35,022 nucleotides of DNA from positions 1 to 35,022 of the forward strand of contig JACPPF010000062.1 of NCBI GenBank assembly GCA_016191165.1, read 5' to 3'. The first letter of the stretch is position 1. Each line of letters opens with the position of its first letter. Source of the stretch: Planctomycetota bacterium. Lineage in GTDB: Bacteria > Planctomycetota > Planctomycetia > Gemmatales > Gemmataceae. Positions 30,723 to 35,022 of the stretch are shown here, piece after piece. The translations under genes were made by a program, and so were the position numbers. The notes beneath the pieces were generated by a model. That model saw only the letters and a list, made by a program, of their open reading frames with translations. It was not told where the DNA came from and made no database searches.

Positions 30723-31481
30723 ATGTCCGCCTTCGCAGTTATCTTTCCGGCCGCCGGGCAGTCGTCCCGCTTTCACGGCAAGGAGAAGAAGCCGTTCACG
30801 AACCTGGACGGCCGCGCGGTCTGGCTTCGCTCGGTTGAGCAATTCATCAATCGCGCGGACGTCGCGCAATGCATCATCGTGGTCTCGCCCGAGGATCAGG
30901 AAATGTTCCGCCGGCGTTTCGGCGCCAACCTGGCATTCATGGACATCCAGATTGCCAACGGCGGTCGCGAGCGTTTTGAATCGGTCGCCAATGCCCTGGC
31001 GCTTTTGAAGCCGGAGGTTGAATTCGTGGCGGTGCATGACGCGGTCCGGCCGTGTGTCACGGAATCGCTGATTGCCGGCGTCTTCGGGCAGGCGGAAAAG
31101 ACCGGGGCGGCCATGCTGGCGGTTCCGGTCACGGATACGTTGAAGCAGGTTGAGCCCAACAAGCAGGTGAAGGCAACGATGCCGCGTCGAGGCCTTTGGC
31201 TCGCCCAGACGCCGCAGGTGTTCCGCCGCGATTGGCTCGAAGCCGCGTACGCCGAGCGTGCCAAGTTGGGCAAGGACATCACCGACGACGCTCAGCTGAT
31301 TGAGGCTGCGGGTCATGCCGTCCACGTCGTCGAGGGCGCGACGACCAATATCAAGATCACAACGAAACAAGATATCATCCTGGCCGAGGCGATCTTGAAG
31401 GCATTGCCGAAGCCGAAACCCAGCGGGCCGGCTCATCCGTTCGCCGAAGAAGAAATGTGGGGCGGGCGCGGCTTGAAGTAG
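30723..31481 (+). CDS. ispD: 2-C-methyl-D-erythritol 4-phosphate cytidylyltransferase IspD
   Basis: IspD adds CMP to methylerythritol 4-phosphate in the MEP isoprenoid pathway. The 252-residue product has the nucleotidyltransferase start VIFPAAGQSSRFHGKEKKPF, the NGGRERFESVANALA segment, AVHDAVRPCV, WLAQTPQVFRRDWL, DDAQLIEAAGHAV and NIKITTKQDI, all at the expected order and spacing. The C-terminal ~30 residues (PKPKPSGPAHPFAEEEMWGG) are a tail longer than normal. The stop codon TAG (31479-31481) is the first triplet of a heptamer repeat run. Confidence 0.94.
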   Translation: MSAFAVIFPAAGQSSRFHGKEKKPFTNLDGRAVWLRSVEQFINRADVAQCIIVVSPEDQEMFRRRFGANLAFMDIQIANGGRERFESVANALALLKPEVEFVAVHDAVRPCVTESLIAGVFGQAEKTGAAMLAVPVTDTLKQVEPNKQVKATMPRRGLWLAQTPQVFRRDWLEAAYAERAKLGKDITDDAQLIEAAGHAVHVVEGATTNIKITTKQDIILAEAILKALPKPKPSGPAHPFAEEEMWGGRGLK

Positions 31482-31506
31482 TGGATAGTGGTTAGTGGAT
31501 AGTGAT
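31479..31506. repeat. TAGTGGA heptamer run that includes the ispD stop codon
   Basis: Four heptamers, TAGTGGA, TAGTGGT, TAGTGGA and TAGTGAT, follow each other without a gap from 31479. The first begins with the ispD stop TAG. Confidence 0.8.
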
Positions 31507-31633
31507 TTGTGCATCGCGATGAAGCACAGGATTTACTGGATCGCATTTCAGAATTGACGACGATCCCGCTCGATCCATTCACCCCGCACGAACCACGATC
31601 CCCTATCACAAATCGCCAAAGGTCAAGGTCCCC

Positions 31634-31710
31634 AACCCCTAACCCCTAACCCCTAACCCCTAACCCCTAACCCCTAACCCCTAACCCCTAACCCCTAACC
31701 CCTAACCCCT
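31634..31710. repeat. Eleven tandem AACCCCT heptamers
   Basis: Eleven perfect copies of AACCCCT (77 bases) end five bases before the ATG of the ABC-2/CPBP gene. On the other strand the unit is AGGGGTT, a G-rich sequence able in principle to form a G-quadruplex. It occupies the whole ribosome-binding region of the next gene. Between this run and the 31479 run, positions 31507-31633 show nothing else I can name. Confidence 0.95.
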
Positions 31711-31715
31711 AATTC

Positions 31716-33956
31716 ATGCGCTGGTTCATCATACGCACGATCTGGCTCCGAGAGATGCGCGATCAGTTGCGGGACCGGCGCACGCTGTTCATGATTCTCG
31801 GATTGCCGCTGGTCCTCTATCCCTTGCTGGGGATGGTGGTCTTGCGGTTTGCCGTGGGGTTCGCGGAGGTTCCGAGTGTTGTCGGCGTCGTCACCAGTTC
31901 GGAAGGGAAAGATTTTCCGCCGCGCCAGCCGGCCGGGGCAGGGCGCAGTGTCGCACCGCCGTTGGCGTGGCTGTCGGCGGCGCCGGGGCAGGGCGCGCCG
32001 GCGGTGATCGGCGCCATGGTTTTCTGGCAAACCAGCGAGCGTCAGCTCGACTATCCACTCCTGGTGCAGGATGGGCAGGTCAATGCCGTCAATGCCGGGA
32101 AGACCAAGTCCACGATTCGATTCGTTTTTCTGAAGCCTGGTGACATGATTTGGCTGGAGCAGCGCCATGGCGACTTGATTCTGGAAGCGTCGCCTGATTT
32201 CTTTGCCGAGCTGGAGCGAGGCGAGGATGGTCGCCGGGCCGGCGCTCTGCTGAAAGTCCGTGGCCGCGATGACGATCGCTCCCGCCTGGCGCTTCGGCGT
32301 TTGACGCCGTTGCTGAATCAATGGGAGGAGGATATTCGGAAGGTTCGCCTGGCACGCCGGGGTATGACCGAGAAATTTTTGAGCCCTTTCAAGGTCGAAT
32401 TGCCCAAGGAACTGACGGATGGCGGCGGCAGGCAGTCGGCGATTGATCTGGTGGTGCGCGTCTTTCCGTTCCTGCTCGTGCTGTGGTCGCTGGCCGGCGC
32501 GCTTTATCCGGCCGTCGATCTCTGTGCCGGGGAGAAAGAGCGCGGCACCATGGAGACGCTGCTCATCACGCCGGCCGGTCGCGAGGAAATCGTCCTGGGC
32601 AAATTTCTGACGATCTGGTTCTTCAGTGCGGGCACGGCGCTTCTCAACCTGCTGAGCATGGGGATCACCACCGCGCTGTTCGCTTCGTACTTGCCGCAGG
32701 TTGGATTCTCGTTTTTTGCGCTGTTTTGGTGCGTGGTGTTGTCGCTGCCTCAGTCGGCGTTTTTTAGCGCCTTGAGTTTGGCGATTGGCGCCTACGCGCG
32801 CAGTTCCAAGGAAGGGCAGTATTACCTGATGCCGCTCTTCGTGGTGACCATGCCCTTGATCTTCCTGACGCTTGCGCCGGGCGTGGAGTTGAATGCTTTC
32901 TACAGCATGGTGCCGGTGACCGGGGTTGCGCTTTTGATGCAAAGGTTGATGACCGCGCCGACGCTGGGTGAGATTCCGTGGGCTTACTTCGTTCCTGTAC
33001 TGGCGCCGATCGCCCTTTACAGCTGGCTGGCACTGCGCTGGGCGATCGAGCAATTTAACCGCGAGGAGGTTCTTTTTCGCGAGGCGGAGCGCCTCGACTT
33101 GGTCCTGTGGATCAAGAGTCTTTTGCGCGAAAAAGAACCGCTGCCCACGACCGGGCAGGCGTTCTTTTGCTTGATGCTCGTCATCGGCCTGCGCTGGCTC
33201 TCCCTGGGCATCGGAAATAACTGGAATCTCGAGGTGCGGACTGTCGTAAGCCAGCTGGCCTTCGTGGCGGCCCCGGCGCTTTTCATGGCGATTTTGTTGA
33301 ATACCAGGCCAACCCACGCCCTTTACCTGCGCTGGCCCGGCGGGAAGGAAACGGCGCTCGCGGCCATCCTCGCCGTCCTTTTGCTGCCGCCCGTGACCGG
33401 CCTGACGCAGGCGGTTGCGGTTTGGTTTCCGCAGCTCATGGAGGGCACCCACCCCCTGATTGCCATTTTGCGCGCCGTTCACCGAGGTGCGGATCTCGAT
33501 ACCGGCGAACTCGGGGTCTATTGGCTGGCGTTCGCTCTCGTGCCAGCGTTATGCGAGGAGGTCGTCTTCCGTGGCCTGGTGCTGCGCGGGCTGCACGCGC
33601 GGTTTCGTCCTCGCAACGCCGTGCTGCTCAGCAGTTTTTTCTTCGCGATCTTCCACATGAACGTCTTCTTGTTTCTACCCGCGTTCGTGCTTGGTGTGGT
33701 ACTTGGTCTGGTGACGGTGCGCAGCCGCAGTCTGGTGCCAGCCATATTCCTCCATTTGTTGCACAACACCATGCTGATTGGGCTGATCCCGCTTAGCCGA
33801 TATTCCGACGGGTGGATTCCCACGCTGCTTCTCAACGCCTGGCCGTGGCTGGTTGGGATTTGTCTGGTGGCTGCCGCGGCTCTGGTGTGGTGGCTCTACC
33901 GCAAGCCGTACGTGGACCTGGCGCGTGCGCAGGCGCGCGAGCCGGCGCAAGAATAG
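31716..33956 (+). CDS. ABC-2 type (NatB-like) permease fused to a CPBP intramembrane metalloprotease
   Basis: The 746-residue product is two proteins in one. Residues 1 to ~450 are an ABC-2 permease of the NatB sodium-export type: MRWFIIRTIWLREMRDQL, one helix (FMILGLPLVLYPLLGMVVL), a long extracytoplasmic domain, then five to six helices starting at FPFLLVLWSLAGALYPAVDL with the ABC-contact segment GEKERGTMETLLITP. Residues ~480-730 are a CPBP (Abi/CAAX-protease-like) domain with EEVVFR (614-619), FAIFH (H647) and HLLHN (680-684), the metal-binding motifs. No ATP-binding partner gene is adjacent. The ATG at 31716 fits the family N-terminus, although the RBS region is a heptamer repeat. Confidence 0.92.
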   Translation: MRWFIIRTIWLREMRDQLRDRRTLFMILGLPLVLYPLLGMVVLRFAVGFAEVPSVVGVVTSSEGKDFPPRQPAGAGRSVAPPLAWLSAAPGQGAPAVIGAMVFWQTSERQLDYPLLVQDGQVNAVNAGKTKSTIRFVFLKPGDMIWLEQRHGDLILEASPDFFAELERGEDGRRAGALLKVRGRDDDRSRLALRRLTPLLNQWEEDIRKVRLARRGMTEKFLSPFKVELPKELTDGGGRQSAIDLVVRVFPFLLVLWSLAGALYPAVDLCAGEKERGTMETLLITPAGREEIVLGKFLTIWFFSAGTALLNLLSMGITTALFASYLPQVGFSFFALFWCVVLSLPQSAFFSALSLAIGAYARSSKEGQYYLMPLFVVTMPLIFLTLAPGVELNAFYSMVPVTGVALLMQRLMTAPTLGEIPWAYFVPVLAPIALYSWLALRWAIEQFNREEVLFREAERLDLVLWIKSLLREKEPLPTTGQAFFCLMLVIGLRWLSLGIGNNWNLEVRTVVSQLAFVAAPALFMAILLNTRPTHALYLRWPGGKETALAAILAVLLLPPVTGLTQAVAVWFPQLMEGTHPLIAILRAVHRGADLDTGELGVYWLAFALVPALCEEVVFRGLVLRGLHARFRPRNAVLLSSFFFAIFHMNVFLFLPAFVLGVVLGLVTVRSRSLVPAIFLHLLHNTMLIGLIPLSRYSDGWIPTLLLNAWPWLVGICLVAAAALVWWLYRKPYVDLARAQAREPAQE

Positions 33957-33971
33957 GGGGAAAATCAAGCC

Positions 33972-34829
33972 ATGCCGGAACTCTGCCTGATCACAACCTG
34001 CATGGGGCGATTGGCGCACTTGCAGAAAACGCTCCCCACCGCGGTTGCCCTGCCCGATTGCACCTGCGTTGTCGTGGATTATTCGTGCCCCGAACGGTCG
34101 GGCGATTGGGTGGAACAGACCTATCCGCAGGTCAAGGTCGTGCGGGTGCCGGGGCGAACGCGATTTAACCCGGCGCGCGCCCGCAACGCCGGCGCCAACC
34201 ATGCCGAGGCGCCGTGGTTGTGTTTTTTTGATGCCGATGGTTTGCTCAGCCCGCATTTTGCCGAGCGGATGCTTCCCGTCTTGCGTTCGTCGCATTTTTA
34301 TGCCATGGACGCGCCAGGCAATTCGCCGAACGTCGCCGGGACGGTGATCTGCCCGCGCAGTGATTTCCTGCGTATAGGCGGCTACGACGAGGTCTTCGAG
34401 GGCTGGGGCGGGGAGGATCGCGATTTTTACGCCCGACTTCGCTTTCACCGCCTTCAGCGCGACGTCATTCCGGCCGAGCTTGTGACGTCCATTCCTCACG
34501 ACGACGACCAGCGCGTGCAGCATTTCGACACCAAAACGCCGCAGGTAAGCCAAACGGTCAACCTTCTTTATCGGACGGCCAAGTTGGACTTGATGCGGCT
34601 CATGGAGCGGGAACTCGAACGAAGTGAACGCGACCAATTGTACGCCGAGGTCAAACAGGTAATGGAGGTTTGGTTTCGCGATCGTCGAGCGACCGAATGG
34701 CGGGTGAAATACTTTCAGCGGCCAACGCCCCTGGGGTCAAGCCTTTCGTCCACGTTGGTGTACAAGCTGGATGCCATGAATGTGTCCCCGCCTGGGCAAC
34801 CCGCGGGCAAGCAACCGCCGATTTCGTGA
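33972..34829 (+). CDS. Family 2 glycosyltransferase with a galactosyltransferase-like C-terminal motif
   Basis: The 285-residue product starts with an inverting GT-A fold (LCLITTCMGRLAHLQKTLPT), has the ARNAGANHAEAPWLCFFDAD stretch with the DxD (D87-D89) that binds the nucleotide-sugar metal, and the block GGYDEVFEGWGGEDRDFYAR (136-155), the conserved acceptor/metal motif of the galactosyltransferase C-terminal family. No membrane segment is seen, so it is probably cytoplasmic, acting on lipid-linked or protein-linked glycans. It follows the ABC-2/CPBP gene by 15 bases and is likely in the same transcript. Donor and acceptor are unknown. Confidence 0.9.
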   Translation: MPELCLITTCMGRLAHLQKTLPTAVALPDCTCVVVDYSCPERSGDWVEQTYPQVKVVRVPGRTRFNPARARNAGANHAEAPWLCFFDADGLLSPHFAERMLPVLRSSHFYAMDAPGNSPNVAGTVICPRSDFLRIGGYDEVFEGWGGEDRDFYARLRFHRLQRDVIPAELVTSIPHDDDQRVQHFDTKTPQVSQTVNLLYRTAKLDLMRLMERELERSERDQLYAEVKQVMEVWFRDRRATEWRVKYFQRPTPLGSSLSSTLVYKLDAMNVSPPGQPAGKQPPIS

Positions 34830-34863: not shown

Positions 34864-35022
34864 TTAGCCACGGAAGGCGCCACCGAAACCGCCGCCGCGG
34901 AACTGACCACCGAATCCGCCGCCGCCGAATTGCCCGCCGAAACCGCCGCCGCCGAATTGCCCGCCGAATCCGCCGCCGCCGAACTGCCCGCCGAATCCGC
35001 CGCCGCCGAACTGCCCGCCGAA
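34864..35022 (-). CDS. Partial Gly/Phe-rich repeat protein, C-terminus
   Basis: The minus-strand frame runs from the window edge to a TAA at 34864-34866. Its last ~52 residues are nearly all Gly and Phe with Gln, in a nine-residue repeat FGGQFGGGG that recurs in perfect or near-perfect form, ending FGGAFRG. The DNA repeat is 27 bases long. The N-terminal part lies outside the window, so function is unknown; such tails are common on secreted or RNA-binding low-complexity proteins. The neighbouring glycosyltransferase is convergent, with about 34 bases between the stops. Confidence 0.7.
   Translation of the reverse strand, partial: FGGQFGGGGFGGQFGGGGFGGQFGGGGFGGQFGGGGFGGQFRGGGFGGAFRG

Follow-up and report, generated by a model that had tools for sequence, protein, structure and literature searches.

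An AACCCCT array ahead of an ABC-2 permease/CPBP protease gene and its relation to the intergenic heptamer repeats of a Gemmataceae lineage

Reports of intergenic heptamer repeats are scattered over Xanthomonas, cyanobacteria and sulfur bacteria, and the presence of these repeats has been attributed to G-quadruplexes or to the binding of proteins. In Xanthomonas and Nostoc, G-rich heptamers of the consensus GGGNATC or GGGGA(C/T)T form non-coding arrays of up to 26 copies, frequently as inverted pairs (70 cases, with 186 repeats in Xcc) (Rehm et al. 2015; PMC4692102). The C-rich strand of these repeats is the coding strand where they lie less than 50 bp before an ORF, while directly downstream of a stop codon it is the G-rich strand that is coding. 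Their length and sequence vary between related species, and they are linked to genes of general metabolism, on which ground phase variation was rejected by the authors (PMC4692102). A further system comprises the TAACTGA direct repeats of Beggiatoaceae, Cyanobacteria and Bacteroidetes, which stand a few nucleotides ahead of start codons lacking a Shine-Dalgarno (SD) sequence, before ribosomal protein genes and other essential genes (MacGregor 2015; PMC4679880).

Here we describe a heptamer array in a stretch of 35,022 nt (the window) from the genome of an uncultured member of the Gemmataceae (Planctomycetota; GCA_016191165.1, contig JACPPF010000062.1), hereafter the source genome (G000); the congeners with which it was compared are other species. 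On the best reading of the data, the window array is one of the intergenic heptamer repeats of the kind already described in Xanthomonas, cyanobacteria and giant sulfur bacteria. Different here is the presence of many unrelated words with one architecture, which replace each other at orthologous junctions.

The ispD-CPBP spacer

The gene following the array encodes a fusion of an ABC-2 permease and a CPBP intramembrane protease (NCBIfam NF041647, ABC_perm_CPBP; Bitscore: 498.8, over the family cut-off). The following features are found in this part of the window:

30723–31481, + strand: ispD, the upstream gene (PF01128; 213.7 bits)
31479–31504, + strand: array of the units TAGTGGA, TAGTGGT and TAGTGGA followed by TAGTG, starting on the ispD stop codon TAG, in the 5′-arm position
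31482–31715, + strand: ispD-CPBP spacer, 234 nt
31590–31609, + strand: degenerate complementary stretch GAACCACGATCCCCTATCAC, the predicted RNA pairing partner of the TAGTGG array (z −2.0, a modest value)
31634–31710, + strand: perfect direct array (AACCCCT)x11, in the 3′-arm position beside the ATG
31716–33956, + strand: ABC-2 permease/CPBP (Rce1-like) intramembrane protease fusion gene (NF041647)
33972–34829, + strand: family 2 glycosyltransferase gene, the next gene in the same direction, after a 15-nt spacer

The initial annotation described eleven AACCCCT units before the ABC-2/CPBP gene, forming a 77-base perfect run that ends five bases from the ATG, and the sequence agrees on both counts. 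The exact run contains 0 mismatches, its last full unit ends at 31710 and is followed by the five bases AATTC, and the ATG is located at 31716–31718. TRF places the array at 31630–31712 (11.9 copies; 98% matches; score: 159), and its distance to the ATG is 3 nt if the partial unit is counted. The C-rich leader and G-rich opposite strand of that annotation were likewise borne out, with the minus (template) strand being of the TTAGGGG type and carrying GGGG eleven times. A second heptamer array, TAGTGGATAGTGGTTAGTGGATAGTG (31479–31504), was absent from the annotation; it is located at the other end of the spacer, and its first three bases constitute the ispD stop codon. When read as its complement, the unit of this TAGTGG array is one base apart from the AACCCCT unit (CCACTAA versus CCCCTAA).

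In the predicted RNA fold of the spacer (z about −2), the TAGTGG array pairs with the stretch at 31590–31609, which is probably the remnant of an older 3′ arm, and the AACCCCT array is left unpaired. Pairing of the AACCCCT array with the TAGTGG arm would be possible with one mismatch per unit, but is not the minimum-energy fold. The leader before the CPBP ATG comprises 79 nt, contains no G, is more than half C and is unpaired in the minimum-energy fold. No promoter was found in the ispD-CPBP spacer, while the intrinsic terminator search of the spacer returned a single minus-strand candidate, no more than expected by chance, and the Rfam search gave sub-threshold chance matches only. At the end of the window (34883–35022), a 27-bp imperfect tandem repeat of five copies is present in low-complexity coding sequence, within a minus-strand open frame that runs past the window edge.

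Judged by alignment, the annotated CPBP start codon at 31716, rather than one further downstream, is correct, since orthologues align from residue 1. A start further upstream is not possible, because the array supplies TAA in all three frames ahead of the ATG. An SD core is missing between the array and this start, in line with the initial annotation. The array does not, however, account for the missing ribosome-binding site, as had been supposed: the ispD-CPBP junctions of congeners and of another genus show no evident SD whether or not they carry an array, and only 40% of the genes in the source genome have an SD core (12% when shuffled).

Heptamer arrays in the source genome and its relatives

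A search of the 7.2-Mb source genome for three exact AACCCCT units gave 13 occurrences at four loci, while the reversed control pattern gave 0, and the window array is therefore not a chance sequence. AACCCCT arrays of 3–6 units precede rplQ (after rpoA), a cytochrome b gene, valS and an RND pump gene, while AACCCCT-type arrays are also present between tRNA genes. At the CPBP gene and at these four protein genes, the C-rich strand is the coding strand (less than 50 bp upstream of the ORF), and the arrays at the five genes stop 3–13 nt short of the start codon. In one tRNA-tRNA spacer (L103:14447–14517; G000:C110), (TTAGGGG)n is joined directly to (CTATCCA)n, so that both words of the window spacer stand side by side with no start codon present.

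AACCCCT arrays with at most one mismatch were not found in the congeners G001, G003 and G005, and exact AACCCCT triples are present in 6/392 sampled genomes of the phylum. The word is thus neither universal nor unique in the phylum, and is not conserved at the CPBP gene. Some matches in genomes G017 and G194 form parts of longer dispersed repeats and were excluded. In G017, AACCCCTCACCCCTAACCCCT is found at 18 places (e.g. L050, L051) within a longer dispersed palindromic element (CTCCCCCTGTACTCAGGGGGAGAGGGG...), which constitutes a separate repeat family.

A survey of spacers covered 726 kb of the source genome and 594 kb of four congeners (~1.3 Mb over five genomes). The leading tandem period was seven, with arrays (score of at least 9) in 23 spacers, against ten spacers for period 9 and one to four each for periods 5, 6, 8 and 10–12. 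The raw counts of period-7 arrays were 18 in the 726 kb of the source genome and 17 in the 594 kb of the congeners, while 0 were found in 400 kb of G014, which belongs to another Gemmataceae genus. Bulk lag correlation over all spacers showed no excess at 7, indicating that heptamer repeats occupy a minority of spacers. The words are diverse, including TAGTGGT, TCCGTAG, CCACTCA, ATTGCAG, GGAATGA, TGAGTGC, GTCATTA and AATTGCA, and GGG or CCC is found in only 4/23 array-bearing spacers. Several Gemmataceae genera carry TAGTGG and ATTGCAG at numerous loci, and many other genera lack these words. Long heptamer arrays also precede the CPBP orthologue in other planctomycete genomes, with AACTGAC-like (L202) and GAGTTGA-like (L192) words, and the AACTGA words of L202 resemble the Beggiatoaceae TAACTGA repeat.

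At gene junctions, heptamer repeats begin on the stop codon or directly behind it, or stop just short of the start codon, by a few nucleotides, or do both. By the gene calls of a simple script, the start positions of which are approximate, 21 of the 27 arrays in co-directional spacers have an end no more than 15 nt from a stop or start codon, against a null mean of 13.6 (p about 0.002). Heptamer arrays are also found in three divergent spacers, and this, together with their presence between tRNA genes, rules out a purely translational or post-stop role as the general one. Y1_Tnp genes are present in all seven genomes, and a link with Y1/RAYT transposases was considered and rejected, as heptamer arrays flank only two of the 30 Y1_Tnp loci scanned.

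The repeats are, furthermore, often the two complementary arms of one hairpin. An inverted partner (score of at least 11) is present in 14/23 array-bearing spacers, against cross-spacer means of 4.3–7.3, and most TAGTGG loci are inverted pairs. Paired arrays often form a stem extending from the upstream stop codon to 4–10 nt before the next ATG. In the valS hairpin of the source genome, the TTAGGGG arm runs from the stop codon and the AACCCCT arm ends 6 nt before the ATG (predicted fold: −64.9 kcal/mol; z −5.9), while at rpoA-rplQ of the congeners G006 and G002 the predicted stem includes the UAG as its first bases and closes 5–7 nt short of the AUG. Strong end-to-end complementarity is observed in 30/255 co-directional, 15/54 convergent and 0/63 divergent spacers of the source genome (shuffled pairings: 0–1), so that the heptamer hairpins represent one class among several spacer hairpins.

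Several other elements were observed in these spacers. An inverted pair of about 10 TAGTGGT units and about 17 CCACTAT units at L258:1494–1751 (G000:C145, near 28950) is longer than the window array. Octamer CACGAAAA arms (L225, upstream of valS in G006) and nonamer CCACAGAGG-like arms (L231) form hairpins that fill spacers as the heptamer ones do, and nine is the second commonest spacer repeat period. Other dispersed palindromes of the source genome (e.g. L084, L067, L099 and L083), of the AGCCCC...GAGCGCAGCGA, GTTTAGC and TTCCCAGGCTCTGCCTGGGAA types, are found in co-directional and convergent spacers, and none in divergent spacers.

Heptamer words are interchangeable and differ among congeners at the same junction. 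Whether AACCCCT occupies the same place in relatives had been raised with the initial annotation, and it does not: other heptamers or hairpins are found at the ispD-CPBP junction of the congeners. While the source genome carries TAGTGGT and AACCCCT, G002 has a TCCGTGG pair, G004 an ATTGCAG pair and G001 a single CCACTCA array, and G003 and G005 contain non-heptamer hairpins. The length of this spacer is 234 nt in the source genome, 48–131 nt in the congeners and 1 nt in G010, which belongs to another, related genus. The rpoA-rplQ junction harbors AACCCCT in the source genome, TCCGTAG in G006, TGGTCAG in G002, another hairpin in G004 and none in G003 and G005. At the valS junction, AACCCCT in the source genome corresponds to the octamer CACGAAAA hairpin in G006. 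A congener heptamer array was found at 5/16 orthologous junctions where the source genome has one, a small sample chosen because of the array in the source genome, compared to 19/492 for the co-directional background (p about 2.6e-4).

Origin and possible roles of the window array

We consider it fairly probable (roughly 0.6) that the window array is one member of a dispersed intergenic heptamer-repeat family of this Gemmataceae lineage, namely a recently expanded and diverged 3′ arm that originated through DNA processes and does not function as a switch. The ispD-CPBP spacer would formerly have held a TAGTGG...CCACTA hairpin extending from stop to start, the 3′-arm word of which may have shifted by one base from CCACTAA to CCCCTAA. 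Replication slippage could subsequently have expanded the changed word to eleven identical copies, giving rise to the C-rich, unstructured leader right before the CPBP ATG. This history is suggested by the similarity of the units, not by an ancestral sequence. It is consistent with the placement of the two arrays, AACCCCT occupying the position that the 3′ arm has at other junctions and TAGTGGT, at the stop codon, that of the 5′ arm, while the absence of a perfect inverted partner of the window array counts against its being the arm of a hairpin. More generally, the repeats would spread and stay complementary mainly by DNA processes, such as slippage and template switching or conversion between arms, with selection confining them to sites where no gene is broken. 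Where transcribed, the elements may act as intercistronic RNA structures, with roles in spacing, mRNA stability or processing, or the separate translation of two cistrons. The effect at the CPBP gene, on its translation or on readthrough, is probably modest and constitutive rather than that of a switch.

A phase-variable switch had been suggested for this locus, whereby slippage would alter the number of AACCCCT units and thereby the expression of the ABC/CPBP gene. The slippage component of this suggestion remains plausible, as eleven perfect units located 3 nt from the ATG (partial unit counted) are prone to it and AACCCCT arrays of other lengths (3–6 units) are found elsewhere in the genome. 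The array is, however, neither within nor in frame with the coding region, and the same arrays stand before rplQ, the cytochrome b gene, valS and the RND pump gene and between tRNA genes. The genes concerned (rplQ, valS, cytochrome b and tRNAs) are not surface or host-interaction genes, and the location of AACCCCT before housekeeping genes argues against a gene-specific switch, which we consider very improbable; phase variation was also rejected for the same repeat class by Rehm et al. (PMC4692102). A neutral or selfish satellite, generated by slippage and dispersal and tolerated between genes without a function, carries appreciably more weight, although we regard it as doubtful. The rapid turnover without a conserved word, the lack of such repeats in many of the other Gemmataceae genera and the perfect copies of the window array are all in keeping with such a satellite, while the clustering at stops and starts exceeds random spacer placement and the same junctions are recurrently occupied, both of which could nevertheless arise from insertion bias.

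As the RNA fold leaves the array unpaired, the structure control proposed in the initial annotation would mean a DNA G-quadruplex on the template strand. Such folding of the TTAGGGG strand, as a G-quadruplex/i-motif, may slow RNA polymerase or shape the DNA ahead of the gene, an idea put forward for the GGGNATC repeats. With eleven GGGG tracts on the template strand, where at least four G-tracts are needed, and with placement and strand bias equal to those of the Xanthomonas and Nostoc repeats (PMC4692102), a G-quadruplex could possibly act at the window locus. It does not define the family, since only 4/23 heptamer-array spacers of the genus contain GGG or CCC and the others share the same placement, and as an explanation of the array it is unlikely. 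Similarly unlikely is a role for the stop-to-start stems themselves, in which heptamer-armed hairpins would fold out the whole spacer and bring the stop codon and downstream AUG side by side, permitting sequence-independent ribosome hand-over (termination-reinitiation) or the insulation of cistrons; template switching would keep the arms complementary while the word drifts, and the window array would be a drifted, expanded arm. Loading of Rho on the leader appears improbable. The 79-nt G-free, C-rich RNA resembles a rut site (about 80 nt, C-rich and G-poor) in length, composition and lack of predicted structure, and two of the three Rho-like genes in the source genome (G000:C47:20598, C135:218590 and C92:59072) are over the family cut-off, such that Rho could end transcription entering a poorly translated CPBP gene. 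The array ends at the start codon, however, where ribosomes would block Rho, and shorter AACCCCT arrays are located inside essential operons such as rpoA-rplQ. Furthermore, this repeat class occurs in Nostoc, and cyanobacteria are not known to have Rho. A translation signal is equally improbable, namely that the CCCCUAA leader represents a site for the ribosome or an RNA-binding protein in place of the SD sequence, as suggested for the Beggiatoaceae TAACTGA repeats, for which binding of S1, Csp or Csr was proposed by MacGregor (PMC4679880). The arrays do end 3–13 nt before the ATG at five genes, but unrelated words in the same position in congeners argue against a common binding motif, and the junction is without an evident SD even where the array is absent.

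Comparison with described repeat systems

In a genus with many unrelated heptamers that have the same period, stop-to-start placement and inverted pairing and that take each other's place at a given junction, the word sequence can be separated from the architecture. The questions of why the unit is seven, and of whether the hairpin or the word is selected, become testable through the comparison of orthologous spacers. The window locus also serves as a warning that such arrays should not be taken for phase-variation switches.

The REP/BIME elements associated with RAYT are likewise dispersed intergenic hairpins, but the arms described here are tandem arrays with no fixed palindrome, and the arrays are seldom near Y1_Tnp genes. 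The STRR heptamers of heterocystous cyanobacteria (Calothrix; cited in PMC4692102) are, by their description, similarly tandem heptanucleotides dispersed in the genome. Closer likeness is found to the TAACTGA repeats, which share with the window array the heptamer direct repeat, the stop codons in forward frames and the missing SD, with the end of the array being 3–5 nt from the ATG here. They consist, however, of a single word, TAACTGA, whereas the window word is AACCCCT, and they are almost all direct (one indirect repeat has been reported), so that hairpin arms are not the rule there. The repeats of Rehm et al. share the 7-nt tandem unit, with the eleven copies of the window array falling within their range of 2–26, as well as the rules of strand and position and the inverted pairs. 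The window unit TTAGGGG/AACCCCT departs from the consensus GGGNATC or GGGGA(C/T)T, and the host is a member of the Planctomycetota. Moreover, while one word family per genome is found in that system, many unrelated words, mostly without GGG, are found here within one genus, and orthologous junctions carry different words.
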